The position numbers and the translations under genes were made by a program. Shown in pieces: positions 8,931 through 24,653 of a DNA stretch of 64,000 nucleotides (position 1 is the first letter of the stretch; each line of letters opens with the position of its first letter). Under the pieces are notes generated by a model. It did not search any database and was not told the DNA's origin. It saw only the letters and a program-made list of their open reading frames with translations. Source of the stretch: Lautropia mirabilis (GTDB lineage Bacteria > Pseudomonadota > Gammaproteobacteria > Burkholderiales > Burkholderiaceae_E); assembly GCF_900637555.1 (NCBI RefSeq), contig NZ_LR134378.1:196001-260000 (forward strand). The letters run 5' to 3'.

Positions 8931-11768
8931 ATGAACGCGCTCGAACACAGTTTTCAGCCCGGCAGCCTCGTCCGTGCCCGCGGTCGCGAATGGGTGGTGC
9001 AATCCGAATCTCGCCCGGACTGGCTTCGCTTGCGTCCACTCAGCGGCGCCGATGATGAAAGCATTGCACTGATTCCGGAACTTGAGCTGCAGCCCGTCGA
9101 ACCCGCCACCTTCGCCTGGCCCAGGCCTGCCCTGGCCGGCAACCACGCAGGTGCGCTGCTGCTGCGCGACGCTCTGCGCCTGACCCTGCGTGCCGGAGCA
9201 GGGCCTTTCCGGTCATTCGGCAACATTGCCGTGGAACCCCGCAGCTACCAGCTGGTCCCGCTGCTGATGGCCCTGCGCCTGTCCACCGTACGTCTTCTGA
9301 TTGCCGATGACGTGGGGGTGGGCAAAACCATTGAGGCCGGCCTGATCGTCCGTGAACTGCTGGACCGCGGCGAAATTGCCCGGCAGGCCATTCTCTGCCC
9401 GCCACATCTGGTCGAACAGTGGCAGTCCGAACTGGAAACCCGCTTCAACCTGCAGGCCATCGCCCTGACCTCAGCCACGGCAGCACGCATCGAACGCAAT
9501 CTGCCTCATGGTGTCCGGCTGTTCGACCATCACCCAGTGGTTGTGGTCAGCCTGGACTACATCAAGAGCGAGCGGCACCGTGAACAGTTTCTGGCAGCAG
9601 CCCCCGAATGCATCATCGTCGATGAGGCACATACCTGCGCCAGCAATGGCGCTGGCAAGCAGCTGCGTTTCGAGCTGCTCAAACGACTGGCAAAGGATGA
9701 GCACCGCCACCTGATCCTGCTCTCCGCCACCCCACATTCAGGCGACGAATCTGCCTTCTACAACCTGCTGTCACTGCTCAACCCCCGTTTTGTGGAGCTG
9801 CAGGGGCATAACCGGGCCGAAGATCCACTGCGCCAGGAACTGGCACGACACTTCGTACAGCGCCGCCGCAAGGACATCGCCGAATGGCAGTCCGAAACCC
9901 ATGATGGCAAAGGCCTCCCCCGCCGCATGACCACCGAGCTGACCTACCGCCTCAGCGGCGGCTGGGGAGAATTTTTCGATGCCGTGCAGGACTATTGCCG
10001 CGACCTGGCAGAGGCCGCGGAACAACAGGAAAGCCAGAACGGCAACCCCGGCGGCCCCCGTCTGGTCTGGTATGTAACTCTGGCACTGCTGCGCTGCGTG
10101 GCATCATCTCCTGCCGCGGCCATCCGGGCACTGAGCCGGCGTCTGGACGGCCATATGACAACGGATGAGCTGTTACCGGAGGATCTGCTGCAGGATGCCC
10201 GCCTCGACGACGGCCAGGCTGATGACCTGTCCGCCGACGACCAGGAGCCACCTGCCTTGCTACAGGAGGCCAAGCCACGGCTACAGGCCCTGATCCGTGA
10301 CGCCGAACGCCTGTCCGGCAAAGCTGGCGACCCCAAACTGGCCACGCTCATCCAGCATATCGGGCAGTTGCTGAAGGACGGTTTTCGGCCGGTGATATTC
10401 TGCCGTTACGTAGCCACAGCCCATTATGTGGCTGAGCACCTGAAAAAAGCTTTCCCCAGGGTGGGCGTTGAAGCGGTCACAGGTGAACTCACACCCGAAG
10501 AACGCCGCGAGCGCGTCGGGAGCCTGGAAGAGGCCGAGTCCCGCATTCTGGTTACCACCGACTGCCTGTCCGAAGGCATCAACCTGCAGCATCTGTTCAC
10601 GGCGGTCGTGCACTATGACCTGACCTGGAACCCCACCCGCCACGAACAACGCGAAGGCCGGATTGACCGCTTCGGGCAGCAGGCAGAAGAAGTACGCTGC
10701 ACCATGCTGTACGGCGAAGACAACCCGGTGGACGGCTTTGTGCTCAACGTCATTCTGCGCAAGGCCGAGGCCATCCGCAGGGAGCTGGGCGTGCTGGTCC
10801 CCATGCCCGAGGATGATACGTCCATCAAACAGGCCATGATCCGTGCAGCCCTGATGAAGCGGCGGGAGCACATGCACTCCCCCCAGGCCAGCCTGGACTT
10901 TGGCGATACCGAAGAAGAGCTTGCCCCCCTGCAGGTCAAATGGCGGGACGCCCTGGACAGAGCCAGGACCAACCGTACCATCTTTGCCCAGCGCACCATC
11001 CGCCCCGAGGAAGTATTGCCTGAATGGCAAAAGCAGCAGCAGGCACTGGGCACCCAGCAGGATGTGCAGCGCTTTCTGGAAAGTGCCTGTGTGCGATTGG
11101 GTTCCCCGCTGGAAAAGGGACGCAACAGTGGATCCGCTGTTTTCATCGCCAGCAACCTGCCGGAAGCACTGACACTTCGCCTGAAGGATGAAAGCATCCT
11201 GAAAGACAACAGCAAACAGGCACAAACACTGTCCCTCAACCTGAACGAACTGCACCGCAGCCACCCTTTGGTAGGGTTGCTGGCGCAGTACCTGCTGGAA
11301 AACGCGCTCGACAGCGAGAACCCAGTGGCAGCCCGCTGTGCTGTAACACTCACCGAAAATGTAGAGGTGGTAACTACCCTCTACCTGCTGCGCCTGCGTC
11401 ATCAGCTCAGCTATGTGCGACGTCGTGAACCCTTCCAGATGATGGCCGAAGAAACCATCACCCTGGCAGTGCGCGGCCGTGTCAACCCGACATGGGAGTC
11501 TGGCGACAGCACCAGCCAGCTGCTGGCATGCAAGCCCAGCGGCAACCTGCCCGTCGAAACCATTCATCGGGAAATTCACGCCGCCCTGCAGTTCCTGACA
11601 GACCATCCGGAACAGCTGGAAAAACTGGCCCACGAACGCGCCAATACCCTGCTGGCCGATCACCAGCGCGTCCGCGAGGCAGCCAGGGATGTGGGGCAGT
11701 ACAAGGTTTCTCCCTGTCTGCCCGTGGATGTCATGGGTGTGTATGTTCTGCTGCCGGATTCACTCTGA
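8931..11768 (+). CDS. SNF2-family helicase, DrmD-like
   Basis: A 945-residue SWI2/SNF2 ATPase. Walker A is DVGVGKT (127-133) within ADDVGVGKTIEAGL, the Walker B box is DEAH (231-234), motif III is SATPHSG, and the C-terminal helicase lobe ends in HEQREGRIDRFGQ (571-583), the SNF2 arginine-finger motif. Length and layout match RapA-like defence helicases such as DISARM class 1 DrmD. It starts 5 bases after the previous stop, with an AAGGA overlapping that stop, so the two are co-translated. In DISARM class 1, drmD precedes the adenine methylase gene, which is also the order here. DNA translocation is likely; the in vivo substrate is unknown. Confidence 0.88.
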   Translation: MNALEHSFQPGSLVRARGREWVVQSESRPDWLRLRPLSGADDESIALIPELELQPVEPATFAWPRPALAGNHAGALLLRDALRLTLRAGAGPFRSFGNIAVEPRSYQLVPLLMALRLSTVRLLIADDVGVGKTIEAGLIVRELLDRGEIARQAILCPPHLVEQWQSELETRFNLQAIALTSATAARIERNLPHGVRLFDHHPVVVVSLDYIKSERHREQFLAAAPECIIVDEAHTCASNGAGKQLRFELLKRLAKDEHRHLILLSATPHSGDESAFYNLLSLLNPRFVELQGHNRAEDPLRQELARHFVQRRRKDIAEWQSETHDGKGLPRRMTTELTYRLSGGWGEFFDAVQDYCRDLAEAAEQQESQNGNPGGPRLVWYVTLALLRCVASSPAAAIRALSRRLDGHMTTDELLPEDLLQDARLDDGQADDLSADDQEPPALLQEAKPRLQALIRDAERLSGKAGDPKLATLIQHIGQLLKDGFRPVIFCRYVATAHYVAEHLKKAFPRVGVEAVTGELTPEERRERVGSLEEAESRILVTTDCLSEGINLQHLFTAVVHYDLTWNPTRHEQREGRIDRFGQQAEEVRCTMLYGEDNPVDGFVLNVILRKAEAIRRELGVLVPMPEDDTSIKQAMIRAALMKRREHMHSPQASLDFGDTEEELAPLQVKWRDALDRARTNRTIFAQRTIRPEEVLPEWQKQQQALGTQQDVQRFLESACVRLGSPLEKGRNSGSAVFIASNLPEALTLRLKDESILKDNSKQAQTLSLNLNELHRSHPLVGLLAQYLLENALDSENPVAARCAVTLTENVEVVTTLYLLRLRHQLSYVRRREPFQMMAEETITLAVRGRVNPTWESGDSTSQLLACKPSGNLPVETIHREIHAALQFLTDHPEQLEKLAHERANTLLADHQRVREAARDVGQYKVSPCLPVDVMGVYVLLPDSL

Positions 11769-11869
11769 TGGCCACCAGACGCACCATGAATGCGAAAACC
11801 CGTATCCCTGGCCCAACCAAAGGCAGCTACCGGAAAGCCACAGACACCACTGGCAAGGACAAGCCCTGA
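11768..11869 (+). CDS. Candidate 33-residue basic protein between the SNF2 and methylase genes
   Basis: ATG 11768 overlaps the TGA of the SNF2 gene (TGATG), and its own TGA (11867-11869) ends one base before the methylase ATG at 11871. This is exactly the arrangement of a translationally coupled gene. The product starts MATRRTMNAK, ends GKDKP, is rich in Lys, Arg and Thr and has no hydrophobic segment. No family is recognised. The alternative is that the segment is the N-terminus of the methylase, which is open from 11790 in another frame, or just a translated spacer. Confidence 0.4.
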   Translation: MATRRTMNAKTRIPGPTKGSYRKATDTTGKDKP

Positions 11870-11870
11870 C

Positions 11871-14800
11871 ATGAAACGCACCCGCAAGACCGAGGCTGCC
11901 CTCTCCCTTCCTGCCACGCTGACACTGGAAGGTGGACTTTTCCTGCCCGATCAGGTTCAAAAGGCCACGCAGGGCCTTGCCAGCGCCCAGCAGGATGCTG
12001 ACTACCGGCTGCCCAAGGGCCTCAAGGCCAAGGATGAATACAGCCGCGCCTTCCAGATTGCCTGCGCCCAATGGCAGGACTTTGCCCAGCAGCTGGAACG
12101 GCGGGACATCGACGCTACCCAACTCACCACCCGCTTTGTGCAGGAGCTGCTGCGCGACGCCTTTGGCTACAACCTGCGTCCGGCACGGCCACTGGAAGTG
12201 GATGGACGGCGTTACCCGGTCAGCTTCCTGGCAGGTAATCTGCCCATTCTGGTGGCGCCCCACACACTGGGGCTGGACGACGCCGACGCCAGCATGGCCA
12301 TCGAAGGCAGCGGCAGCCGCCGCAAGACCCCTTTCCAGGCCATGCAGGAACTGCTCAATGCCAGCGAATCGCTGCTGTGGGGCATCGTCAGCAACGGCAG
12401 GCAGCTGCGGCTGCTGCGTGATGCCGCGTCGCTTACCCGCCCGAGTTTTCTGGAAATCGACCTGGTCGACCTGCTGGGCAGCAAACACTACGCCGAGTTT
12501 GCCAATGCATGGCGGCTGCTGCATGCCAGCCGGGCACTTACAGATACCCAGAATACGTCCTGCATCTGGGAACGATGGCGCCACGAGGGTCAACAGGAAG
12601 GTACCCGGGTACGGGATGGCCTGCGCAACGGCGTCGAAAAGGCATTGCTCACGCTGGGTGAGGGTTTTCTGCAGCATCCATCCAACGACAACCTGCGTGC
12701 TGCGCTGGACAGTGGTCAACTGGGTCGCGACGCCTACTTCCAGCAACTGCTGCGGCTGGTGTACCGGCTGATTTTCGTGTTCACCGTGGAAGAACGCGGG
12801 GTTCTGCACCCGCAGTGGAATGACCCCGAGACGAAGGCTGCCCGCCGCGCCTACGCCGAAGGCTACGCACTGGCCCGACTCCGCAACTTCAGCCTCAAAC
12901 GTCGCCCCCGCAACCGGCACGATGACCAGTGGCAGGCCATTCGCATCGTCTTCCGGGGGCTGGACCAGGGCGAGCCCCGGCTGGCCCTGCCCGCACTGGG
13001 CGGCCTGTTTGCCGCCAGCCAGTGCAAGGACCTGGACGCCGCCAGTCTGGACAATGCTCACCTGCTCGAAGCCCTGAAAGATTTACGCTGGGCACGCCCC
13101 CCTGGCTCAGACAGCCTGGTGCCCGTAGACTACCGCAACATGGGGCCAGAAGAGCTGGGCAGTGTATATGAAAGCCTGCTGGAGCTGGTCCCCACGGTGG
13201 ATGTCCATGCCCGCTCATTCGACTTCGTGGGCAGAACCGACGCAGCCAGTACGGCAGGTAATGCCCGCAAACTGACCGGCAGCTACTACACCCCCGACAG
13301 TCTGGTGCAGGAACTGATCCGCAGTGCACTCGAACCCGTCATCGAGCAGCGGCTTGCTTCCAGCCCCGCAGCACCGGAAGCAGCCCTGCTGGCCATCCGC
13401 GTCATCGACCCGGCCTGTGGCAGTGGGCACTTTCTGCTGGCCGCTGCCCGGCGTCTGGCGGAAAGGCTGGCGCTGCTGCGCAGTGTGGCCAGCGGGTACG
13501 AGGGGGCCATCCGGCCGAAGGACTACCGTCACGCCCTGCGTGAGGTCGTGGCACACTGCATCTATGGCGTGGACCGCAACCCCATGGCCGTCGAGCTGGC
13601 CCGCATGGCACTGTGGCTGGAAGGGTTTGAAGAAGGGCGCCCGCTGGACTTTCTGGACCACCACCTGCAGGTGGGCGACGCCCTGCTGGGCCTGACCAAT
13701 CTGGATGCCCTGACCCGAGGTATTTCCAAAGACGCTTTCAAGCCCCTGAGCGGTGATGACCGGGAAGTGTGCAAGGCACTGACCAAAACCAATGCTGTCG
13801 CCCTCAAACAGCTGACCAGAGACTTGCAGAGCCAGCAGATGCTGCTGGGTATGGACAACACGTCCGGCCTGCAGGCCATGCGCGCCATCGAAGACATGCC
13901 CACCAACACGCCGGAGCAGGTCAGTATCAAGGAGACCCGCTGGCTGGAATTCATGCAGACTGCCGCACAAAGTCCGCTGGCACAAGCCGCAGATGTGCTG
14001 GTGGGCGCCTTCCTGCTGCCCAAGACCACGGACAGGGGCGCAACCGTACCGACCAGCGCCACGCTGCATACCCTGCTGACCACCCCCAACGACATCACGG
14101 GTCCTGCCGCCGATGCGGTGGCAGCAGCCCGCGCCGCCTGTGCCGAGGCACGCGTACTCCACTGGCCCCTGGCGTTTCCGCAAGTGTTTACTCCCCGCGG
14201 CACCGAGGGCCACCGGGGCTTTGACTGTGTGCTGGGCAACCCACCGTGGGAGCGCATCAAACTGCAGGAAGAAGAGTTCTTTGCCACCCGCAACGCCGAC
14301 GTGGCAGCGGCACGCAACAAGGCAGAGCGCAGCCAGCGTATCCAGTGGCTCAGCGAAGGCCGGCTGGCGCAGAACCTGCACTTCGGCCGCACACCTGCAC
14401 CAGACGGCGCACCACAGCTGCAACACGCAAATGGCCCTGACGAGGCCGAGAGGCGCCTGTACCGGGAGTTTGTCACTGCCCGCCGCACAGCTGAGGCCAC
14501 GAGCCTTTTCGCCCATGTAAGCGGAAGCGAGGGGGGACGCTACCCGCTCACCGGCGTGGGCGATGTAAACACCTATGCCCTGTTTGCCGAAACCATCCTG
14601 CAAATTCACGCCCGGGACGGCCGGGCCGGCTTCATCGTGCCCACAGGCATTGCCACCGACGACAGTACCAAGGCCTACTTTGGCCACATCACGCAGTCGA
14701 AGCGGCTGGTCAGCCTGTACGACATCGAAAACCGCGAAGCGGTATTCCCTTCTGTGCACCGCAGCTACAAATTCTGCCTGCTCACGCTGGGTGCTTCCGA

Positions 14801-16364
14801 ACAGGCCGAATTTGTCTGCTTTGCCACCCAGGTCAGCCAGCTGGCGGACGAGCGCCGGCGGTTCACGCTGACACCGGAAGACTTCCGGCTGATCAACCCC
14901 AACACGCTGACCTGCCCGGTGTTTCGCAGCAAACGCGATGCCGAACTGACCAAAAAGCTCTACCGGGCAGCACCGGTCCTGATACGTGATGCCTACGTCG
15001 AAGGTAAGGGCAAGCATGCCAGGGAGGTTCCAGCGCAGAATCCATGGGGCATTACGTTCCAGCGAATGCTGGATATGGCAAACGACAGCCATCTGTTCGA
15101 ATACCAGAACAACCCGGAACCGGGCAGCAGCGCAACAGACACGAAGCGCCTGCCCCTGTACGAGGCAAAACTGATTCATCATTTCGATCACCGCTGGGCC
15201 ACTTACACAACCGACCCAAATACTGGCACCGTAGCCAGCCGGGATGTGACCCTGCAGGAAAAACAGGATACGTCCTTCAGCATCACGCCCCGGTACTGGG
15301 TGCCTGCCCGTGAAGTCTGGCTGCGACCGGCAGATCTGCCGGACGAACTGATGCGCGCCCTCAAGGCAGACGATGGGCACGCCACCGTACTTGCCGTCAC
15401 CAAAGTGCTGTTTGGGCGCCACCTGACCGCTCTGCACGAGGAGGCTCCGGGCACAGCAGCACTGGCCGCCTGGGAAAGCTTTGTTGACCTGCACGCTTAT
15501 GCCAAGGATATCGACCCCGAAGAGCTGGGAGTCAAACCGCTCAAGAAAAACGCAGGCGGCCTGCTGGACGAAGGTCTACCCCTGGCCGAACAGCAACTGC
15601 TGCGCCTGGCCGATGAAGCCAGTAACCTTCCCATGCCACCCGCAGGGCTGAGCAGCGAAGAAAGCGCACAACGACTGGCGGAGCGCTGGCTGGAGGAAAG
15701 CTGCCCGAAATGGTTGATGGGGTGGCGGGATATCTGCCGGGCAACGGATGAACGGACGGTGATTGCTTCGGTTTTGCCGGCGGTGGGTGTGGGTCACACC
15801 ATGCCTCTGCTAACAACGGTTTGGGATGCCCGCCAAACATCCGCGCTTCTTGGCAACCTGTGCTCCCTTGTACTGGATTTCTGCGCGCGAGTGAAGATCG
15901 GCGGCACACACCTTACCTACAGCTATCTGAAGCAGTTTCCGGTCATCCCACCCGAACGCTACACTGAACCCGATCTTGATTTCATCACGCCCCGCATTCT
16001 TGAGCTGACCTATACCACCAAGGACATGGCTCCTTGGGCCACGGCCCTTATCAGCGGATGGAAGCTGGACAATGGCAACTGGAAGCCAGGCACCCCGGAG
16101 CCCATCCGTCGATCACCCTTGGCTCCCTTCCCTTTCGACCCTGCACGACGCGCCATCTTGCGTGCAGAACTCGATGCATACTACGCCCGCCTCTATGGCC
16201 TGGACCGCAACGAGCTGCGCTACATCCTGGACCCGGAAGACGTGATGGGCAACGACTACCCCAGCGAAACCTTCCGCGTGCTGAAAGACAGGGAAATCCG
16301 GGAGTATGGGGAATACCGCACCCAAAGGCTGGTGCTGGAGGCCTGGGACAGACAGCATACCTGA
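11871..16364 (+). CDS. N6-adenine DNA methyltransferase, Eco57I/DrmMI-like
   Basis: A 1497-residue class I SAM-dependent DNA methylase. The AdoMet motif I is DPACGSGHF (513-521) just after a GSYYTPDSLV segment, and the catalytic motif IV is NPPW (790-793) in VLGNPPWERI. Together these indicate adenine-N6 methylation, as in Eco57I, BREX PglX and DISARM DrmMI. The ~480-residue N-terminal part is a type IIG-like helical region; the ~600-residue C-terminal part is probably for target recognition. No PD-(D/E)XK nuclease motif is seen, so this is a modification-only enzyme. ATG 11871 is chosen for an AAGGA 11 bases upstream; an in-frame ATG or GTG near 11790 would add 27 residues. Confidence 0.88.
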   Translation: MKRTRKTEAALSLPATLTLEGGLFLPDQVQKATQGLASAQQDADYRLPKGLKAKDEYSRAFQIACAQWQDFAQQLERRDIDATQLTTRFVQELLRDAFGYNLRPARPLEVDGRRYPVSFLAGNLPILVAPHTLGLDDADASMAIEGSGSRRKTPFQAMQELLNASESLLWGIVSNGRQLRLLRDAASLTRPSFLEIDLVDLLGSKHYAEFANAWRLLHASRALTDTQNTSCIWERWRHEGQQEGTRVRDGLRNGVEKALLTLGEGFLQHPSNDNLRAALDSGQLGRDAYFQQLLRLVYRLIFVFTVEERGVLHPQWNDPETKAARRAYAEGYALARLRNFSLKRRPRNRHDDQWQAIRIVFRGLDQGEPRLALPALGGLFAASQCKDLDAASLDNAHLLEALKDLRWARPPGSDSLVPVDYRNMGPEELGSVYESLLELVPTVDVHARSFDFVGRTDAASTAGNARKLTGSYYTPDSLVQELIRSALEPVIEQRLASSPAAPEAALLAIRVIDPACGSGHFLLAAARRLAERLALLRSVASGYEGAIRPKDYRHALREVVAHCIYGVDRNPMAVELARMALWLEGFEEGRPLDFLDHHLQVGDALLGLTNLDALTRGISKDAFKPLSGDDREVCKALTKTNAVALKQLTRDLQSQQMLLGMDNTSGLQAMRAIEDMPTNTPEQVSIKETRWLEFMQTAAQSPLAQAADVLVGAFLLPKTTDRGATVPTSATLHTLLTTPNDITGPAADAVAAARAACAEARVLHWPLAFPQVFTPRGTEGHRGFDCVLGNPPWERIKLQEEEFFATRNADVAAARNKAERSQRIQWLSEGRLAQNLHFGRTPAPDGAPQLQHANGPDEAERRLYREFVTARRTAEATSLFAHVSGSEGGRYPLTGVGDVNTYALFAETILQIHARDGRAGFIVPTGIATDDSTKAYFGHITQSKRLVSLYDIENREAVFPSVHRSYKFCLLTLGASEQAEFVCFATQVSQLADERRRFTLTPEDFRLINPNTLTCPVFRSKRDAELTKKLYRAAPVLIRDAYVEGKGKHAREVPAQNPWGITFQRMLDMANDSHLFEYQNNPEPGSSATDTKRLPLYEAKLIHHFDHRWATYTTDPNTGTVASRDVTLQEKQDTSFSITPRYWVPAREVWLRPADLPDELMRALKADDGHATVLAVTKVLFGRHLTALHEEAPGTAALAAWESFVDLHAYAKDIDPEELGVKPLKKNAGGLLDEGLPLAEQQLLRLADEASNLPMPPAGLSSEESAQRLAERWLEESCPKWLMGWRDICRATDERTVIASVLPAVGVGHTMPLLTTVWDARQTSALLGNLCSLVLDFCARVKIGGTHLTYSYLKQFPVIPPERYTEPDLDFITPRILELTYTTKDMAPWATALISGWKLDNGNWKPGTPEPIRRSPLAPFPFDPARRAILRAELDAYYARLYGLDRNELRYILDPEDVMGNDYPSETFRVLKDREIREYGEYRTQRLVLEAWDRQHT

Positions 16365-16377
16365 CAGACGCATCACC

Positions 16378-17202
16378 ATGAACGAAACCCTGATTGCCCA
16401 CGTAGCCACGAACAACGGGTTCGACATGGCCACCCCGGCAGGAAACGGTAGCATCACGCTGACCACGGCACGACATGAAACCCGGGCCGTCATAAGCCCG
16501 TGGCTTACGGGGATAGGGGTCATCATTCAGTCGCCATACCCCAACCTGGTGGCAGAACTTGCCCGCAGCGTACCTCCCTGGCCATCCAGAAACGACCAGT
16601 TCCATCTGGCAGATCTGGAGCAACTGGCGGCATTTTTACGAAGAACGACCCAGCTCTCAATGGCATTCCGTAAACAGCAGGGAGCGGCCATGCACATTGG
16701 CCATTCTTCAACTTCCGATGCCATCCCGGCCCCCCAACCAGAAGCGCCCCCAGACATTAACAGCCAATCACCCACGCTTTCCGCAGAAACGGAGATCGAG
16801 CGCATCCGTCGGGAACGAATTGGCCAGAACATCTATCGCAAAGCACTCATGGAATACTGGCGAGGCGCCTGCGCTGTCACTGGAATCACGCTGCCCGAGG
16901 TACTGCGCGCCAGTCATGCCAAGCCTTGGGCGGAATGCACCCGCGACGCGGAGCGACTGGATGTATTCAATGGTTTTCTGCTGGTGGCCAATCTCGATGC
17001 CCTGTTCGACCGTTTTCTGGTCAGCTTTGATGATCAAGGCAAGCTGATGGTCAGTCCACGATTGTCTGCCGTAGAAATGCAAAAACTTGGACTGACCCAG
17101 GGCATGAAGCTGCGCTGGGTAGAAAAACAACACCTTCCATACCTTCACTGGCATCGCAATCAGTTTATACTGGCAACAAGTAATCACGATGTGGCGCCAT
17201 AA
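16378..17202 (+). CDS. HNH endonuclease family protein (HNH_2)
   Basis: 274 residues. The C-terminal half (about 145-265) has the HNH_2 pattern: IYRKALMEYWRGACAVTG, then RASHAKPW with H180, then DVFNGFLLVANLDALFDRF. The first ~120 residues are unlike any domain I recognise, and a Pro/Ser-rich linker joins the halves. ATG 16378 lies 13 bases after the methylase stop. Such nucleases are common as the cutting subunit in modification-linked defence operons. Here it could supply the nuclease that canonical DISARM takes from DrmC (a phospholipase-D fold), which is absent. This role is inferred from position only. Confidence 0.75.
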   Translation: MNETLIAHVATNNGFDMATPAGNGSITLTTARHETRAVISPWLTGIGVIIQSPYPNLVAELARSVPPWPSRNDQFHLADLEQLAAFLRRTTQLSMAFRKQQGAAMHIGHSSTSDAIPAPQPEAPPDINSQSPTLSAETEIERIRRERIGQNIYRKALMEYWRGACAVTGITLPEVLRASHAKPWAECTRDAERLDVFNGFLLVANLDALFDRFLVSFDDQGKLMVSPRLSAVEMQKLGLTQGMKLRWVEKQHLPYLHWHRNQFILATSNHDVAP

Positions 17203-17220
17203 TTCGCCAACACACTCGAT

Positions 17221-18312
17221 ATGATTTACACCAAGGCCTGGAAAAGCTATCAGGAACAGCTTGACCTACTCGTATCCAGAGGTTTGCTTGTGACTGACCC
17301 CAACCTTGCCTTGCAGCATCTGGAGAGAATTGGTTATTACCGGCTGAGTGGGTACTGGTATGCATTCCGTGAAAGAAGTGCTGTGGCGTGCCCACTCGAC
17401 AACAACCTCAGGAAACCCAGTAAGGTCACTGAAACACGTATTACCCTGGACAGCTTCATCCCTGGGGCATCCTTTCATGATGCGGTTGCCCTGTACATCT
17501 TTGACAAGAAGCTCCGAATGCTGGTGATGGACGCGATGGAGCGCATTGAGATTGCACTGCGTGTCGATATTTCCCATACGCTCGGCAAGCTTGATCCGTT
17601 TGCGTACCTGAAGCCAGAGCTGCTTCACGAAGACTTCAGCATCAAGCTCGACAGTACCCGAGGAGTTACCGAGCACCATACCTGGCTGGGCAAGCATGCC
17701 CAACTGATTAGCCGCTCAAAAGAACATTTCATCGACCACAACAAAGAAAGGTATGGCCTGCCGATCGCCATATGGGTTGCCTGCGAAGTATGGGACTTCG
17801 GTACGCTGTCCAAGCTTTTTGGCGGCATGCGTGAACGTGACCAGGACGCCATTGCACAAAAATACGGCATCGGCAATGGGCGAGTATTCGCAAGCTGGCT
17901 CAGGAGCCTCAACCATTTGCGCAACATCTGTGCCCACCATGGGCGCCTGTGGAATCGCAATATCAGTGACCAGCCCAGGCTTCCCAATAAAAGGGGCTCT
18001 GCTGGACCAAAAGCTCACCTGTCAACGTCAACCGGTGGAGAAGGCCACACCAAGCAGCACCTCGGCAATCCTCCGTGGGTCAAGCACTTCGAATCGGACA
18101 CACACGCCAGGGCACGTTGCTATGTTTTGTTAATTATTGTCAAGCACTTGTTGGCAACGATCTGTCCCAACTCCAGCTGGCCAGACCGCATGAAAGCGCA
18201 TCTGGACGCCTTCCCTCCACTGGATCACGTCGGGCTGAACCTAAGAGGCATGGGTGCACCGGACGACTGGCAGGCCATTTGGGATGGGCCAAAAAAGAAC
18301 CCCTCAGCGTGA
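17221..18312 (+). CDS. Abi family HEPN protein (Abi_2, AbiF/AbiD-like)
   Basis: A 363-residue Abi_2 protein. Typical elements are LERIGYYRLSGYWYAF near residue 36, a middle ERIEIALR helix, and the HEPN ribonuclease motif RNICAH (234-239) followed by HGRLWNR. HEPN proteins of this type are RNases that arrest infected cells. It starts 18 bases after the HNH stop and may be co-transcribed. Its last codons run into a hairpin that, on the other strand, is a terminator of a small RNA gene. That layout fits a toxin with an RNA partner, but this is inference. The weak spacer RBS suggests modest translation. Confidence 0.85.
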   Translation: MIYTKAWKSYQEQLDLLVSRGLLVTDPNLALQHLERIGYYRLSGYWYAFRERSAVACPLDNNLRKPSKVTETRITLDSFIPGASFHDAVALYIFDKKLRMLVMDAMERIEIALRVDISHTLGKLDPFAYLKPELLHEDFSIKLDSTRGVTEHHTWLGKHAQLISRSKEHFIDHNKERYGLPIAIWVACEVWDFGTLSKLFGGMRERDQDAIAQKYGIGNGRVFASWLRSLNHLRNICAHHGRLWNRNISDQPRLPNKRGSAGPKAHLSTSTGGEGHTKQHLGNPPWVKHFESDTHARARCYVLLIIVKHLLATICPNSSWPDRMKAHLDAFPPLDHVGLNLRGMGAPDDWQAIWDGPKKNPSA

Positions 18313-18347
18313 ACAGTACAACCTAGTTCACGAGAGGGGCCGTGTTG
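18291..18347 (-). ncRNA. Predicted ~57-nt hairpin RNA antisense to the abi 3' end (copy 1)
   Basis: Read on the minus strand, the RNA starts CAACACGG and folds as CCCCTC (paired with GAGGGG) plus GTTCACG/CGTGAAC, a 13-bp stem with a small bulge and an 11-base loop. It ends in TTCTTTTTT, a classic intrinsic terminator. A sigma-70-like promoter lies immediately upstream at 18354-18382. The abi stop codon (18310-18312) lies inside the hairpin, so the two transcripts converge and overlap. A second copy with compensatory stem changes occurs at 19742-19797. It may be an antitoxin or guide RNA for the HEPN protein, or only a terminator. Confidence 0.5.
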
Positions 18348-18353
18348 AGAGTA

Positions 18354-18382
18354 AGGTTAGCCTACTTTGCCCCCCAAGTCAA
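18354..18382 (-). promoter_or_regulatory. Sigma-70-like promoter of hairpin RNA copy 1
   Basis: On the minus strand, TTGACT (18382-18377) and TAACCT (18359-18354) are separated by exactly 17 bases. The predicted start falls near 18347, just before the conserved CAACACGG. Confidence 0.45.
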
Positions 18383-18525
18383 TGCTAACGTTCCTTGCCC
18401 ATCCCTGCATTCCCCGCAGGGGTATCGGGTACGCAACGCCCCCTGAATCCATAGTCCCTGCCCTTATGAACTCGGCCCCGATGCTTCTCTTCTGCCCACC
18501 GGCCCCTCCTTGACCACATCACCTT

Positions 18526-19539
18526 ATGAAGATGAGCACCCGCGAGCTGGAAACCCTGATCCTGCGCCAGAACCGTGCAGCCCTGCGCTGGGACAACGAA
18601 CCCATCGATCAGCCCCTGAGTACGCTGAACGAGGCACGCATTCGCCAGTTCGTGCAGACGGCGGGGCTTTCCTAGGACAACATCACCAACACGCTGGACA
18701 AACTGGGCCTGCTGCGCGACGGCCGTCCCGTCAACGCCGCCCGGCTGTTCTTTGCCGATGAACCCATCGAGCTTCGCTGTGCCGTGTTCGCCACCCAGAC
18801 CAGCGCAACCATTCTCGACCGCCACGACTTCCACGGCACGCTGCTGGAACTGATCAATGAGGCCCAGAAGTTCGTCCTGAAGAACATCCACATCGGCATG
18901 CGACTGGATGGCATGCGCCGGGTCGATGTCCCCGAAATTGCCGTCCCGGCACTGCGGGAAGCCATCATCAACGCCTTCTGCCACCGCGACTGGCGCGACC
19001 CGGACTATGTACAGGTCGCCGTTTATCGTGACCGGGTCGAGATCCGCAACCCCGGCGAACTGTACGAGAACCTGACGCTGGAAGAACTCCGTCGGGGCGG
19101 CGTATCACGCCGGCGCAACCCGCTGATTGCCGACCTGCTGCGCCGTATCCATCTGGTGGAAGCCTGGGGCCGTGGCGTGCCGCTGATCCTTGCAAACGCT
19201 CCCGATGTCACTTTCCGGGAGGTGGCCGGGCTTTTCATCGCCAGCTTTGCACGGCCGTCGGCCCGGCATGCCGGGGCAGAAAGCGCCCCCTCGAAAACTA
19301 CCCCGAAAACTGCACCAGAACAGCAGGTCCGGCGGCGCCAGAAGACGGGAGAAACCCTGCTTCAGATACTTCGGCAACAGCCACACCTGAGTACAAGCGA
19401 GCTGGCCCAGATGACCGGATTGAGCCAGGATGGCATCAAGTACAACATCAACCAGCTCAAACGCACCGGCAAGCTGGTTCGCCATGGCCCTGCCAAAGGC
19501 GGCTACTGGGAAGTCACGGACAAATCTGGCGACGAGTAG
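18526..19539 (+). pseudogene. Broken Schlafen/AlbA_2-type ATP-binding regulator
   Basis: The reading frame starts MKMSTRELETLILRQN, meets an in-frame TAG at 18673-18675 (after QTAGLS), and continues for 288 codons to 19539. The second part has the GHKL-like block PALREAIINAFCHRDW, RIEIRNPGELY-type strands, GRGVPLI and a C-terminal winged helix (about residues 200-250) with LSTSELAQMTGLSQDG. The family normally starts with an AlbA_2/Schlafen domain; that part is missing and the frame is closed by a TGA just upstream. An internal restart at ATG 18784 could still give a 251-residue ATPase/HTH fragment. The gene lies between the two hairpin RNA copies. Confidence 0.75.
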
Positions 19540-19549
19540 CCTTGGCCTG

Positions 19550-19592
19550 CCCTTTACTACGGTGTCTCATGGAAGCAGAGGCTAGTAAAGGG
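19550..19592. repeat. 10-bp perfect inverted repeat after the broken regulator
   Basis: CCCTTTACTA (19550-19559) is mirrored by TAGTAAAGGG (19583-19592) around a 23-base loop, 10 bases after the stop. It has no T run, so it may be an operator, a Rho-dependent end or a mobile-element scar. A partial third copy (CAGTAAAG) lies about 60 bases further on. Confidence 0.4.
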
Positions 19593-19668
19593 ATTACGGC
19601 CAACTTGTTGATTTATATGTTTTCTTTACCCTGAATCCAGTCAGGCTTCAGTAAAGCCCCCCACGGAG

Positions 19669-19760
19669 CGCCTCCGCGCCCCCTTGCGGGAGACGCCAGA
19701 CAGCACCGACGTGCCATGGCCAGGGCACATCTGGAACAGCCAAAAAGAACCCCTCAGCGT
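19669..19760 (+). pseudogene. Possible remnant of a second abi 3' end
   Basis: In one frame this stretch reads APLRE...DVPWPGHIW...KEPLS. This resembles the abi gene's own end (LRGMGAPDDWQAIW...KKNPS) and the usual PL-x-MG-x-P...W...IW finish of Abi_2 proteins. It runs into the second hairpin copy just as the intact abi gene runs into the first. The rest of the gene is gone. The match is short and by eye. Confidence 0.25.
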
Positions 19761-19797
19761 CCGCTTCACGAGCAGGCGGACGGGAGGGGCCGTGTTG
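19742..19797 (-). ncRNA. Predicted hairpin RNA, copy 2
   Basis: It has the same build as the RNA at 18291-18347: CAACACGG, outer stem CCCCTC/GAGGGG (19784-19789 with 19750-19755), an inner 7-bp stem GCGGACG/CGTCCGC, an 11-base loop and TTCTTTTT. Three inner base pairs differ from copy 1, and each change is compensated on the other arm. A perfect TATAAT (19808-19803) lies just upstream on the minus strand; the -35 region is weak. Confidence 0.4.
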
Positions 19798-19802
19798 AAG
19801 GG

Positions 19803-19808
19803 ATTATA
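19803..19808 (-). promoter_or_regulatory. TATAAT -10 box before hairpin RNA copy 2
   Basis: A consensus TATAAT on the minus strand, 5 bases before the conserved CAACACGG. At 17 bases upstream the hexamer is TGCCGA, a poor -35, so promoter strength is uncertain. Confidence 0.35.
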
Positions 19809-19886
19809 GGTCATCTTCAGCATCATCGGCAGCCTGTCACTTTTCGTAAAATCTCCTCCATTCATACCGCTGGAGGGGAGAACCAC

Positions 19887-22800
19887 GTGAACGCACAGGA
19901 ACGCATCATCCGTTACTGGCATGCCGTCGAGCTGCTGCAACCGTCCCAGCTCAAGAAGCCCGAGGACAGTGCCGGCCGTTCACCAAAGGACGAATTCGTC
20001 CATGATATTCAATCCAGTAACGAGCCATTCCCCTGGGAACCGGGCAGCGAGGCCAGCCGGCAGCCTTTGCCCCTTGATGAGATAGACAAACGTACCGGAA
20101 AGCCCAAAGTCTACACATGGTTCCACACGCTCTACGTTCAGATCTTCCCGACAAAGACCATCACCGATGCACTGGACAGGGCATTCGGCGCCGACCAAGG
20201 CTATCGCGACCCCGCAGAACGGGAATATTCAGCGCTGTATGCCGCCGAATTCACCCATGACGGCCAGCTCGTCCCGGGCAGCTTCACCCTGTCCAGCGAA
20301 GCCTGGTTCCTCGGACGACTGACCAGTGGCAGTGACTGGTCGAAGGATTTCAACCAGGACCAGACTTCCATCAGGCAGCAGGCCGAAGCCCGCCTGACTG
20401 GGTCGGTCAACCGGCAAGCCCTGGACGAACTCACGACATTCGTCATCCAGCAGTGTGGGCTGCAGACTGTGTTGTCCAACCCGGAAAAAGCCGTGCTGCG
20501 CTCCTGTAGCCGGCCCGTTGAAGTCAAGGGACAACAGCACGACACAATCAGCGACACAGCAGTCGGGGTCATCCCTGCAAAGGCAGCCCCCACATCCAGG
20601 CCCTCTGCCCACGTTGTTGCAGACACGTCCAAAGGGGGAGGCACGGCGACGGGAGAATCTATAACACGCCCCCAACCCCGCCAAAGCGATCTCCCCCTCA
20701 ACAGCTTTCTGCTGGACGATCTGATCCAGGTTGCAGAAGCAGTTGCCACCGGCAATACCAGCAAGGCCCTGTCACAATATCTGGATCCGAACGCGAGCAT
20801 CACCCGCCACACCATCGGCAGCGCGGAACTGGAAAGCGCCATTGTCGACCATCTCCTTCCCCACAAGCACCCCACCGGCTGCTGGCCTGCCGAGGAGCAT
20901 CGCGGACTGGTGCACGCGCAGCAACTGGCCATCAATTTCATTCTGGAGCAGCTGGGGGAAGGAGCCGGTATTCTGGGTATCAATGGCCCCCCAGGAACCG
21001 GCAAGACTACCCTACTGAGGGATCTGGTGGCCGCCATCGTCACGCAGCGAGCCGATGCCCTGGCGCAACTCCCGCGCGCCTCGGATGCATTCCAGAAAAA
21101 CGCGAAAGAAACCGGCAATGCCAGTGGCAAGAAACAAAACGCCCACCCCCTGCAGCCTGACCTGTTCGGTTACGAGATCATCGTTGCCTCCTCCAACAAT
21201 GGCGCTGTCGAGAACATCACCCGGGAGCTTCCACAACGCAGCAAGATCGATGGCAGCTGGCTGCCAGAAGCCGATTATTTCGGCGAACTGGGAACACTGA
21301 CCTCCGGCGCCCCCTCATGGGCCTTGATCTCTGCCGCGCTGGGCAGCAAGTCACGACGAAGCAAGTTCATCGATCACTATTTCTTTGGCAACCGCACCAG
21401 GGAAGAGCTGGTAGCGATCACCGGGAAACTGCAATATCCGCATGGGCTGCAAGGCTGGCTGAGTGGGCACGCAAACCAGTACAAATCCATGTCCAATGCG
21501 TCGGCAAATCGGCAACAGCGCTGGCAGCAGGCAGTGGAATCCTACAACGAAGCCAAGGCAGCCGAATCGTCCATCCGCCACAGTGTGGATGCATTTCTCA
21601 CGAAAATCCAGCATATCCAGTCACAGCGCAACCAGCTTCCTGTGCTGCTCTCGACGCTGCAGACACTGGAAAACAGCCTCCCTGACCCCATTGCCGTATT
21701 GGAGAGGGATGCCGACTCCGGTCTGCTTGCTGCTCAAAGCCGGCAAAAAGCATGTGCGGCGGAGGTACTGCAGCACCAGACACGCAAGCCCGGCCTCTGG
21801 CAGAACCTCGCCACACTCTGGAGCGCCAGCCGCGCGTGGCAAGCCAACCAGGCATCTCTGCAGGCCACCCAGCTCAGGGCCGAACAGGCCGTGGCACAAT
21901 GGCAGCTCCTTCAGCACCATCAGAACCAGACAGCCACCGATGTGCAGAACGCCATCCAGGATGCCACCAGGCTGCAGGCCCAGCATATCGTTTCGTGGCT
22001 GCAGACGGGACATACCACCGGAGACCGGCAGAATGAACTGCACGAGCCCTGGCCCCTACCCCACTGGCGACAGGCCCGTGCTCGTGTCTTCCTGGAGGCG
22101 CTGCGGCTGCACCAGACCTTCCTGGCGCTCGAAGCCACACGTATCCGTGCCAACCTGGATCTGGCCAATGCCCTGATCCAGGGCCAGTCCTTCAGCGGCT
22201 ATTCCCGAGACGCCATCCGCTCCGCCTGGGCATCCCTGTTCATGGTGGTACCGGTACTCAGCAGCACCTTTGCCTCCTTCGACCGCTCCTTTGGATCGCT
22301 TGGTTGCGAGGAAATCGGCTGGCTATTGGTCGACGAAGCCGGACAGGCCACTCCACAGGCGGCCGTGGGTGCCCTCTGGCGCGCCCGCCGTGCCGTGTTC
22401 GTGGGCGACCCACTGCAGCTCAAACCCATCATGACCGTATCAGATGCGGCACTGGAGCACATGCGTACCCACTTTGGGGTCGACAATCATTGGTTGCCCA
22501 ACCGCCACTCAGCCCAGACACTGGCAGACCAGGCCACGCCATGGGGACGCACAACCGGCCCCGATGACCACCAGTCCTGGGTGGGTCTGCCGCTGGTGGT
22601 ACACCGTCGCTGCGACAGGCCAATGTTTGAGCTGGCCAACCGCATTGCCTACGACGGCAACATGGTCTACGGCACCATTGCCCCCAGACCGGATCGTGAA
22701 ACGCCGGCCCACCTTCCCACCGGGTGGTTGCATGCCACGGGAACATCGCAGGGCAACTGGGTAGCGGAAGAGGGCAGAATGCTGCAGGCCCTGCTGGCGG

Positions 22801-23318
22801 CACTGCGCAGCGACGGTGTCGCACCCGGCGATATCGCCATCGTCACCCCGTTCCGCGGCGTCCTCAAGAAAATTCCCGCCCTCGTCCGCCCCTATCGGGG
22901 CAAGGGCAAAACAGGAAAAATCAACTGCGGCACAATCCATACCATGCAAGGCAAGGAGGCTCCCGTGGTGATCATGGTACTGGGCGGCAACACCGCCTCT
23001 CCAGGCGCCCGCGACTGGGCTGTGTCGGAACCCAACCTGCTGAACGTAGCCGCCACCCGCGCCAAACGGCGTTTCTATGTGATTGGCGATCGCAACGACT
23101 GGCAGCGCCGTGCGCTCTTCTGCGATGTCATGGACCTTCTGCCGGCACTGGATCTCCACGCCGAAGATATCGGCGGAGCACTCCATCAGAAGGCGCTGGC
23201 CTCGCGGGACCGGGCACGTGCCACTGGACGGTACCGTTCTGCCGACGAAGTCCTGGATGGCCTGCGTGCCCTGCGCGACGAGGAACGCACGCGCCGAACT
23301 GCGGCAAGAAAGGCATGA
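19887..23318 (+). CDS. Large SF1 helicase/ATPase (AAA_11/AAA_12, Upf1-like)
   Basis: 1143 residues from GTG 19887, which has a strong GGAGGGGAG 6 bases upstream; the open frame before it overlaps the hairpin RNA and is not protein-like. Walker A is GPPGTGKTT (367-375), Walker B is DEAGQ (816-820) followed by FVGDPLQLKPI, and late motifs include TPFRGVLKK, HTMQGKEAPVV and NVAATRAKRRFYVIGD. About 400 residues separate motifs I and II and look helical. The ~320-residue N-terminal region is unassigned. Large SF1 helicases of this type are frequent in defence islands. It may act alone or with the ATPase/DUF4276 pair that follows after 132 bases. Confidence 0.8.
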   Translation: MNAQERIIRYWHAVELLQPSQLKKPEDSAGRSPKDEFVHDIQSSNEPFPWEPGSEASRQPLPLDEIDKRTGKPKVYTWFHTLYVQIFPTKTITDALDRAFGADQGYRDPAEREYSALYAAEFTHDGQLVPGSFTLSSEAWFLGRLTSGSDWSKDFNQDQTSIRQQAEARLTGSVNRQALDELTTFVIQQCGLQTVLSNPEKAVLRSCSRPVEVKGQQHDTISDTAVGVIPAKAAPTSRPSAHVVADTSKGGGTATGESITRPQPRQSDLPLNSFLLDDLIQVAEAVATGNTSKALSQYLDPNASITRHTIGSAELESAIVDHLLPHKHPTGCWPAEEHRGLVHAQQLAINFILEQLGEGAGILGINGPPGTGKTTLLRDLVAAIVTQRADALAQLPRASDAFQKNAKETGNASGKKQNAHPLQPDLFGYEIIVASSNNGAVENITRELPQRSKIDGSWLPEADYFGELGTLTSGAPSWALISAALGSKSRRSKFIDHYFFGNRTREELVAITGKLQYPHGLQGWLSGHANQYKSMSNASANRQQRWQQAVESYNEAKAAESSIRHSVDAFLTKIQHIQSQRNQLPVLLSTLQTLENSLPDPIAVLERDADSGLLAAQSRQKACAAEVLQHQTRKPGLWQNLATLWSASRAWQANQASLQATQLRAEQAVAQWQLLQHHQNQTATDVQNAIQDATRLQAQHIVSWLQTGHTTGDRQNELHEPWPLPHWRQARARVFLEALRLHQTFLALEATRIRANLDLANALIQGQSFSGYSRDAIRSAWASLFMVVPVLSSTFASFDRSFGSLGCEEIGWLLVDEAGQATPQAAVGALWRARRAVFVGDPLQLKPIMTVSDAALEHMRTHFGVDNHWLPNRHSAQTLADQATPWGRTTGPDDHQSWVGLPLVVHRRCDRPMFELANRIAYDGNMVYGTIAPRPDRETPAHLPTGWLHATGTSQGNWVAEEGRMLQALLAALRSDGVAPGDIAIVTPFRGVLKKIPALVRPYRGKGKTGKINCGTIHTMQGKEAPVVIMVLGGNTASPGARDWAVSEPNLLNVAATRAKRRFYVIGDRNDWQRRALFCDVMDLLPALDLHAEDIGGALHQKALASRDRARATGRYRSADEVLDGLRALRDEERTRRTAARKA

Positions 23319-23450: not shown

Positions 23451-24653
23451 ATGAGCATCCCCGTCTTTCTGCAGCGGGTCATCCTGCAAAACTACAAAAG
23501 CATCGGCCACTGCGATGTCCGCCTCCATCCCCTGACCTGGCTGGTCGGCGGCAATGGTGCCGGCAAGAGCAACTTTCTGGACGCGCTCCAGCTGGTCAGC
23601 GATGCCCTCAACGGCTCACTGGACAATGCACTGAACGAGCGCGGCGGGATCAACGAAGTCCGGCGCCGCTCCCGCGGCCACCCCACCCACTTCGGCATCC
23701 GGCTGGAATTCCACCTGCCGGATGGCAGGGAGGGACACTTCGCATTCCGGATCGGCGCCCTGAAAAACGGCGGATACGAAGTACAGAACGAGGAATGCAT
23801 CATCGGGGGCATCGGCCGGGGGCCGGCCTACCAGGTCGAACGGGGAACCCTGAAGCACAGCAGCGAGCCCACCTTCCCCGCCATCACCTCAGACCGTCTG
23901 GCCCTGGTCGCTGTTTCCGGTACGGCCGCATTTCGTCCGGTGTTCGACGCACTGGCCTCCATGCGCTTCTACAACCTCAACCCCCGGTTGATGCGTGACC
24001 TGCAAACCCCACAGGACGGAAAGCTCCTCAAGGAAGAGGGCGAGAACATTGCCAGTGTCATAGGTCACCTGCAGCGTGTCGGTGATGGACAACTGGATGC
24101 CATCCAGGAGTATCTGCGCATTGTGGTGCCGATGATTCACGGTGTTCAGCGCAAGCAGATCAGCAGCAAGGAGACCCTGGAATTCCGGCAGGACGTAGGA
24201 GACAGCACGCCGTGGCGTTTCGAAGCCCAGAACATGTCCGATGGCACACTGCGCGCGCTCGGCGTGCTGACCGCCCTCTTCCAGGGCAACCGGGACTTCG
24301 CCCCCTCTCTGGTAGGTATTGAAGAGCCCGAGACCGCACTGCACCCAGCTGCCAGCGCGGCACTGCGTGAGGCGCTGACCCGTGCCTCCAAGCAAACCCA
24401 GATCATTGTGACCAGCCACAGCCCCGACCTACTGGACGACACCAGCATACCGGCCGACACCGTTCTTGCCGTGGTGGCCGACCAGGGCAACACACACATT
24501 GCCTCGCTGGATGAAGCCTCCCGGGACAGCATGCAGAAACACCTGTTTTCTGCCGGAGAACTGCTGCGGCTCGACCAGCTGCAGCCCGACCCGAATGAAC
24601 TGGAACATCAGACAAGGCATCAGGCCTCCTTGTTCAATGAACTTCCTTCATGA
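23451..24653 (+). CDS. AAA ATPase, OLD/AbiEii-like
   Basis: A 400-residue ABC/SMC-class ATPase. Walker A is GGNGAGKS (33-40), Walker B is GIEEPETALHP (289-299), then TSHSPDLLDD as the switch/H-loop. A signature-like NMSDGTLRAL precedes Walker B. The TOPRIM domain of full OLD nucleases is missing; the next gene encodes a DUF4276 protein that could provide it. The stop at 24651-24653 is 18 bases before that gene, so the two form an operon. ATG 23451 is preferred over the ATG 5 bases upstream, which is in another frame. Confidence 0.85.
   Translation: MSIPVFLQRVILQNYKSIGHCDVRLHPLTWLVGGNGAGKSNFLDALQLVSDALNGSLDNALNERGGINEVRRRSRGHPTHFGIRLEFHLPDGREGHFAFRIGALKNGGYEVQNEECIIGGIGRGPAYQVERGTLKHSSEPTFPAITSDRLALVAVSGTAAFRPVFDALASMRFYNLNPRLMRDLQTPQDGKLLKEEGENIASVIGHLQRVGDGQLDAIQEYLRIVVPMIHGVQRKQISSKETLEFRQDVGDSTPWRFEAQNMSDGTLRALGVLTALFQGNRDFAPSLVGIEEPETALHPAASAALREALTRASKQTQIIVTSHSPDLLDDTSIPADTVLAVVADQGNTHIASLDEASRDSMQKHLFSAGELLRLDQLQPDPNELEHQTRHQASLFNELPS

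Follow-up and report, generated by a model that had tools for sequence, protein, structure and literature searches.

The stretch of Lautropia mirabilis DNA analysed here (64,000 nucleotides, positions 196,001 to 260,000 of contig NZ_LR134378.1; hereafter the window) carries a gene of the Abi_2 family, referred to as abi, and a small predicted RNA gene that faces its 3' end from the opposite strand. A second copy of the RNA gene, to which the initial annotation does not refer, is found in the same window. The features concerned are the following (nt, nucleotides).

17221..18312, plus strand: gene for a HEPN protein of the Abi_2 / AbiD-AbiF family, a putative RNase toxin of 363 amino acids (Pfam, PADLOC, PDB)
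17920..17937, plus strand: HEPN motif RNICAH (R234-H239), which fits the pattern R-polar-xxx-H
18291..18347, minus strand: small structured RNA gene, copy 1, with its 5' end near 18347, the leader CAACACGG, a hairpin and a U-rich terminator
18354..18359, minus strand: -10 element TAACCT of the RNA promoter, its position kept in relatives
18377..18382, minus strand: -35 element TTGACT of the RNA promoter, with a spacer of 17 nt, kept in relatives
19742..19797, minus strand: second copy of the RNA gene, with no abi beside it; inner stem changed yet paired
19803..19808, minus strand: TATAAT upstream of copy 2, where the -35 element is poor

The abi product shows a single Abi_2 domain (PF07751; 184.1 bits at a cut-off of 25.6, E 4.2e-54) and is assigned to AbiD by PADLOC (E 8.1e-60). 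A sequence search led to PDB entry 8vz6 (E 5.3e-30), and an AlphaFold2 model computed from 29 aligned sequences (mean pLDDT 91) matched the same entry in a fold search (8vz6_A; E 1.8e-16, TM 0.66/0.80), this being the sole PDB match with E <= 0.001. The title given there is that of a PbAbiF dimer bound to non-coding RNA (ncRNA). Residues R234 and H239 align with R210 and H215 of 8vz6 (RNICAH versus RNSCCH), which are the residues mutated in PbAbiF according to passages of PMC12373285. The motif RN-x-CAH is present in 65 of the 67 abi relatives for which an open reading frame (ORF) was set. Because the matches to 8vz6 agree in sequence, in the HEPN residues and in fold, the protein is a true AbiF homologue.

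On the minus strand, the RNA unit reads TTGACT, 17 nt, TAACCT, 6 nt, CAACACGGCCCC, the hairpin, GAGGGG and TTCTTTTTT, the latter forming the 3' end of the copy 1 RNA in the window sequence. The RNA (54 nt) folds at -25.7 kcal/mol (z -5.1) into an outer stem, a U/CU internal loop and an inner stem; for the longer stretch of 92 nt delimited in the initial annotation, the folding z is -2.6. A generic single-sequence scan for promoters and terminators did not flag the unit. Copy 1 is thus unremarkable by its own sequence, and the case must rest on comparison.

For this comparison, a peptide-pattern scan with the abi protein was run on one genome per species (84,980 species) and yielded 72 loci (sequence loci fetched for comparison are given L-numbers). 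At 66 of these, the same RNA gene lies beside the abi end, on the opposite strand and convergent. The hairpin accompanies abi genes in other genomes too, as a test set beforehand had required, and the minus-strand unit with its own promoter, hairpin and T-run, which had been proposed for 18291..18382, is present as described and strengthened by its relatives. A covariance model (R1) was built from 63 distinct copies, both window copies included. It gives one match per locus, always on the minus strand, with scores of 37.5-81.4 bits, and no further matches in those abi loci up to E 0.5; since R1 recovers its own training copies by construction, the information gained lies in the lack of extra matches. 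The window copies, both part of the model, score 50.0 bits (copy 1, 18347-18294) and 50.9 bits (copy 2). According to the record titles, the hosts are beta- and gammaproteobacteria, e.g. Acidovorax, Polaromonas, Limnohabitans, Pseudomonas, Thiothrix, Marinomonas and Neisseria.

From the abi stop codon to the RNA end, the median distance is 15 nt; at 7 of the 63 measured loci, the window being one of the seven, the two overlap. The overlap with the stop codon, to which attention had been drawn initially, does exist in the window, where the RNA is complementary to the abi reading frame over 22 nt. With only 7 of 63 loci overlapping, it is incidental rather than the rule, and a role for it is not borne out.

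The six loci at which the RNA is lacking include two partial abi matches (L070 and L073), two proteins that are 30-32% identical (L074 and L075), and L071 and L008; an unfiltered R1 search of these six revealed nothing beyond chance. At L071 (4900-4985), which carries a more distant abi, there is a divergent hairpin with the leader CAAUACG, TATAAT upstream and a CCGAG/CUCGG stem (z -2.1), possibly a bridge to further RNA families of such kind. At L008 (2241-2320), where abi is 63% identical, a different stable hairpin (z -4.1) occupies the place of the RNA and is followed by the same U-tract and then ATTG; here, the RNA partner might have been exchanged for another. In a genome of the same genus, a look-alike hairpin (L003:1497-1553 / L082:6366-6422) scores 29.5 bits with R1; it is not counted as a copy, as it lies amid overlapping ORFs and has neither a promoter-like stretch nor a full U-tract.

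The conserved blocks follow one another on the minus strand as TTGAC, 16-18 nt, TATAAT, leader, stem and U-tract. TATAAT, with one mismatch allowed, is in place in 47 of the 65 distinct upstream regions, which include those of the window copies, compared to 1 and 0 in two control stretches, and a -35 element with at most two mismatches is found in 49 (shuffled mean 7.0, maximum 14). Consensus folding is far better on the minus than on the plus strand (-21.4 vs. -6.2 kcal/mol), and in single-sequence folding the minus strand is preferred in 59 of the 63 copies. There are 218 cells with G-U pairs on the minus strand, of which 124 belong to the two GG/U-tract pairs and 94 lie elsewhere, and 34 of the 63 copies have a CUUCGG loop when read on this strand. 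Paired cells amount to 94.1% (85.0 when shuffled), two-sided pair changes to 108 (28.7 when shuffled) and the covariation score to 0.358 (0.191 when shuffled), none of these values being reached in 500 shuffles; for two weaker pairing measures, 14 and 3 of the 500 shuffles attained the real value. When the structure was slid along the alignment, 31-64% of the cells were paired, and the real structure exceeds all of the slid ones in percentage paired and in covariation score. These pair counts are biased in favour of the structure, which was derived from the same alignment. The promoter, terminator, G-U pairs and covariation together point to an RNA gene on the minus strand. A reading on the plus strand, as part of the abi 3' untranslated region, was considered as well, since the flanks are conserved on either strand, but was rejected in view of the promoter, the terminator, the G-U pairs and the folding.

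Copies were also sought outside the set gathered with abi. In the 3.17-Mb genome there are only two, both by a strict pattern and by R1, and a single Abi_2 match. Copies 1 and 2 of the window share side blocks of 19 nt (100% and 95% identical), and the inner stem is altered on both sides and still pairs. Three surveys, in each of which the genome of the window is counted, covered the class, the order and the phylum. In the class (369 genomes, strict filters), R1 matched in three genomes and Abi_2 was found in 37. Each of the three also has an Abi_2 match, no more than about 350 bases away from the RNA. In the order, R1 matched in 5 of 399 genomes, and in the phylum, the strict pattern was found in 5 of 398. 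The surveys gave ten matches outside the window, two of which (L216 and L228) are loci already seen as L024 and L052. Of the eight independent matches, five lie beside an intact abi and one beside an abi fragment (L224), while two (L222 and L226) are orphans, with no abi within the 3 kb fetched. Restriction genes or other genes of defence surround these two and also copy 2 of the window, which is what one would expect if such copies were remnants, or spare antitoxins, within defence islands.

The RNA motif is also encountered in viruses. A scan of IMG/VR with the pattern AACACGGCCCC N20-45 GGGGTTNTT found at least 120 stretches, corresponding to 88 distinct elements among the matches listed, compared to 1 and 12 matches for two controls with scrambled leaders. 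For 119 of the at least 120 viral contigs, no Abi was found in the stored stretch (1.3-15 kb); peptide patterns detected one Abi homologue among the matches listed. The TC...GCT signature of the U/CU loop is present in 56 of the 88 elements, compared to a mean of 2.0 and a maximum of 6 in 200 sets with letter-shuffled interiors, and in none of the 13 control matches. Each of these 56 has its better fold on the RNA strand. R1, applied to 67 of the viral loci, matched 65, 49 of them at 40 bits or more. Because 12 of the 13 scrambled-leader loci still reach 15-23 bits, only viral copies well above this range are clear members, and because the leader is part of both the model and the pattern, the comparison of viral and scrambled loci by R1 is partly circular, which the signature test is not. 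The copy in L093 lies between the terminase and portal genes of a phage and has a score of 69 bits, inside the abi-linked range.

Only 15 of the 88 viral elements have a TATAAT of their own in place (2 and 1 of 88 in controls). A crude ORF finder placed 21 inside a long ORF, and 40 follow the stop of a same-strand ORF at no more than 40 nt. Ten neighbouring genes were scanned; six of those just before the copy matched named phage families and three had no match. The six matches are to SSB in L086, the major head protein in L091, holin in L094, endolysin in L115 (where the copy is a weak member with 23 bits), a virion structural protein in L176 and Hsp20 in L087; in L149, a release-factor-like gene precedes it, with a tRNA in between. 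Several copies start after a tRNA, either directly (L184) or at a distance of 3 nt (L123, L149, L178) or 7 nt (L085). The viral contigs L149 and L123 additionally have several tRNAs and matches to tmRNA of the permuted type. All eight whole viral records searched, the largest of 262 kb, have exactly one copy; these had been selected for having a copy, may be fragments, and include one weak match (E 0.006). No R1 match was found in seven named phages, six of which were chosen via a homologue of the SSB protein and one via DNA likeness to L108. BLASTn of single copies against named phages returned matches of 18-21 nt only, and with a query that contained a tRNA it returned tRNA matches.

The comparison establishes, at the level of sequence, that a promoter-hairpin-terminator RNA gene has been kept facing this abi clade. 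We consider it likely that abi encodes a toxin and the minus-strand RNA is its antitoxin, the two being paired as in AbiF systems and similar to type III systems. The RNA is best read as a putative antitoxin whose family is new, as is its layout (downstream of the toxin gene, convergent and equipped with its own promoter). The linkage of an RNA gene to a toxin gene, a trait of type III systems, holds at 66 of the 72 loci. The initial annotation had left open whether the RNA is an antitoxin or a guide; the former fits the homology to AbiF, for which an RNA antitoxin is published. The RNA would be transcribed constantly, starting near CAACACGG, and would fold into an outer CCCC-GGGG stem, the U/CU internal loop and a variable inner hairpin. 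It could then bind the HEPN dimer and block its RNase site. Infection may halt host transcription or remove the RNA, whereupon the protein would cut RNA and cell growth would stop. Since the leader and the loop are constant while the inner stem varies, the former are the likely recognition parts.

A close published system is AbiF-RCd22 from the Clostridioides difficile phage phi027, which also combines an Abi_2 HEPN protein containing RN-x-CAH with an adjoining hairpin RNA. According to the parts of PMC12373285 that deal with it, the toxicity of the C. difficile AbiF and its neutralisation by the bound hairpin RNA have been demonstrated, the RNA stems matter for neutralisation, and RCd22 lies upstream of abiF on the same strand, is co-transcribed with it and contains two RF03085 motifs (Rfam, abiF RNA). 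The window system differs in having one hairpin, of another family, with its own promoter, in a downstream and convergent position. With the PbAbiF-ncRNA complex (PDB 8vz6; Zilberzwige-Tal et al.), the likeness lies in the homologous protein. RF03085 itself, when compared by eye, resembles the present RNA in its outer stem and its asymmetric internal loop (1 nt on the 5' side, a longer 3' side with C and U) and differs in consensus. It was rejected as the identity of the hairpin, as RF03085 misses these copies and R1 gives no match on five RF03085 loci; in a scan of the window at gathering score, no Rfam family including RF03085 matched the hairpin. In ToxIN, antitoxin repeats lie upstream of the toxin gene and are co-transcribed with it, whereas here a single copy lies beside the abi end on the opposite strand. 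A literature search found no description of the hairpin RNA (the AbiF/Cas13 study by Zilberzwige-Tal and its supplements lay outside this search), and the leader string occurred only in papers that are unrelated by title.

Several points weigh against the antitoxin reading. The abiF RNAs whose place was compared, in C. difficile and at L076 (same order), lie upstream of abi on the same strand, at L076 as an RF03085 match directly before the gene. In the window, 18 nt between the preceding ORF and abi leave no room for such an RNA, and positions 17100-20200 contain no RF03085 match at E <= 10; nor was one found at gathering score in the 16 of the 72 abi loci that were searched. The 72 loci were collected by means of the abi protein itself, and the copies were first chosen by a plus-strand pattern with two mismatches allowed, which favours a constant leader. 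In the class survey, just 3 of the 37 Abi_2-bearing genomes have the RNA, which is therefore confined to part of the Abi_2 family, and one of the three is the same locus as L024.

The viral copies lead to a further and more tentative proposal. Diverse phages may have captured single orphan copies as antitoxin mimics, by which the toxin of the host would stay bound while the phage infects; this would amount to a widespread counter-defence against AbiF by an undescribed RNA family guarding one AbiF-like clade; we regard this as well conceivable, though short of probable. The family would be defined by the leader AACACGG, the CCCC-GGGG stem with its U/CU loop and the terminator, with phage copies often at gene 3' ends or just after tRNAs. 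In PMC3475682, the pseudo-ToxI RNA of phage PhiTE is reported to act against ToxIN, as proven by experiment. It may serve as a precedent for the mimic principle by analogy, since PhiTE carries a copy of an RNA antitoxin but lacks the toxin; toxin and RNA are different ones, and in our case the activity is inferred only. Cyanophage S-CREM1, for which an Rfam search is reported in part of PMC9964418, is likewise a phage with an abi-type RNA, in this case of the RF03085 family. Absence of the RNA from the named phages searched and from phage sk1 counts against mimicry. A report of 2000 credits a region of sk1 with protecting phage 712 from AbiF (the title is cited in PMC12737573 and PMC6105707); since sk1 has neither an RF03085 match up to E 5 nor an R1 match, it does not support the idea. 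The TC...GCT signature also is missing in 32 of the 88 listed viral elements (including L091, L115, L178 and L184), which warns against too easy a claim.

It is possible, if somewhat doubtful, that the viral copies are functionally unrelated, as a phage small RNA or a terminator that another host factor recognises, and that the abi clade borrowed the motif. They are numerous, most lack their own promoter, and some are preceded by genes for SSB, the major head protein, holin or Hsp20, or by tRNAs; two of the eight independent bacterial matches are orphans as well. The other six bacterial matches, beside an intact abi or a fragment of it, speak against this, as does the abi-like score of the copy in L093.

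A cis-antisense function, by which the RNA would pair with the 3' end of the abi mRNA and make this message less stable or less well translated, in the manner of type I toxin-antitoxin systems, appears improbable to us. The convergent position and the complementarity of 22 nt in the window are in its favour, but the overlap with the abi ORF is rare, orphan copies exist, and what is conserved (leader, loop and covarying stems) is structure rather than complementarity.

We regard it as quite unlikely that the unit does nothing more than terminate transcription, of abi or of a convergent minus-strand gene. It does form a good intrinsic terminator on the minus strand, and nearly half of the listed viral elements closely follow a same-strand ORF. 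For abi itself, the plus strand has no T-run after the stem. The nearest ORF to the right is on the minus strand at 34 and on the plus strand at 30 of 64 loci (two more were too short; crude ORF finder), and a minus-strand ORF lies within 150 nt of the RNA at only 17 of the 64, so that the unit is not simply the terminator of a neighbour. Termination requires neither the leader nor the U/CU loop, a -10 element stands a few nt before the leader in most of the bacterial upstream regions, and the single copy per viral genome, even in the record of 262 kb, argues against a general terminator motif.

Type VI CRISPR-Cas13 combines a repeat-spacer array with an effector that has two HEPN domains, whereas the window has two hairpins 1450 nt apart and a protein with one Abi_2 domain. 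That the RNA is a guide for a Cas13-like nuclease, the other option in the initial annotation, is extremely improbable despite the relatedness of AbiF and Cas13 (passages of PMC12737573), as there is no tandem array in window positions 17000-20500 and no spacer, and the RNA stops at its own terminator; the CCCC/GGGG stem alone says little about kinship with Cas13 repeats.

The RNA and abi are embedded in a dense defence island (window positions 3529-24653) with the following further members.

3529-8925: DruE-like
8931-11768: DpdE/DrmD helicase
11790-16364: DrmMI/IIG methylase
16306-17202: HNH
19716-23318: MkoC-like helicase
23451-24653: HEC-01A-like ATPase

Between the two RNA copies, a helicase/regulator-like gene (HATPase_c_4, HTH; 18526-19539) may be split, as an ORF of 49 codons stops at a TAG (18673-18675) and the recognisable part is the ORF from 18784.

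According to passages of PMC12737573, Cas13 is proposed to descend from AbiF, and its guide from the RNA that partners AbiF. With a second RNA family of different build and gene order, there would be an independent view of what AbiF needs for RNA recognition. If the phage copies are indeed mimics, evasion by RNA of the PhiTE type would become a common form of counter-defence that can be found by sequence search.
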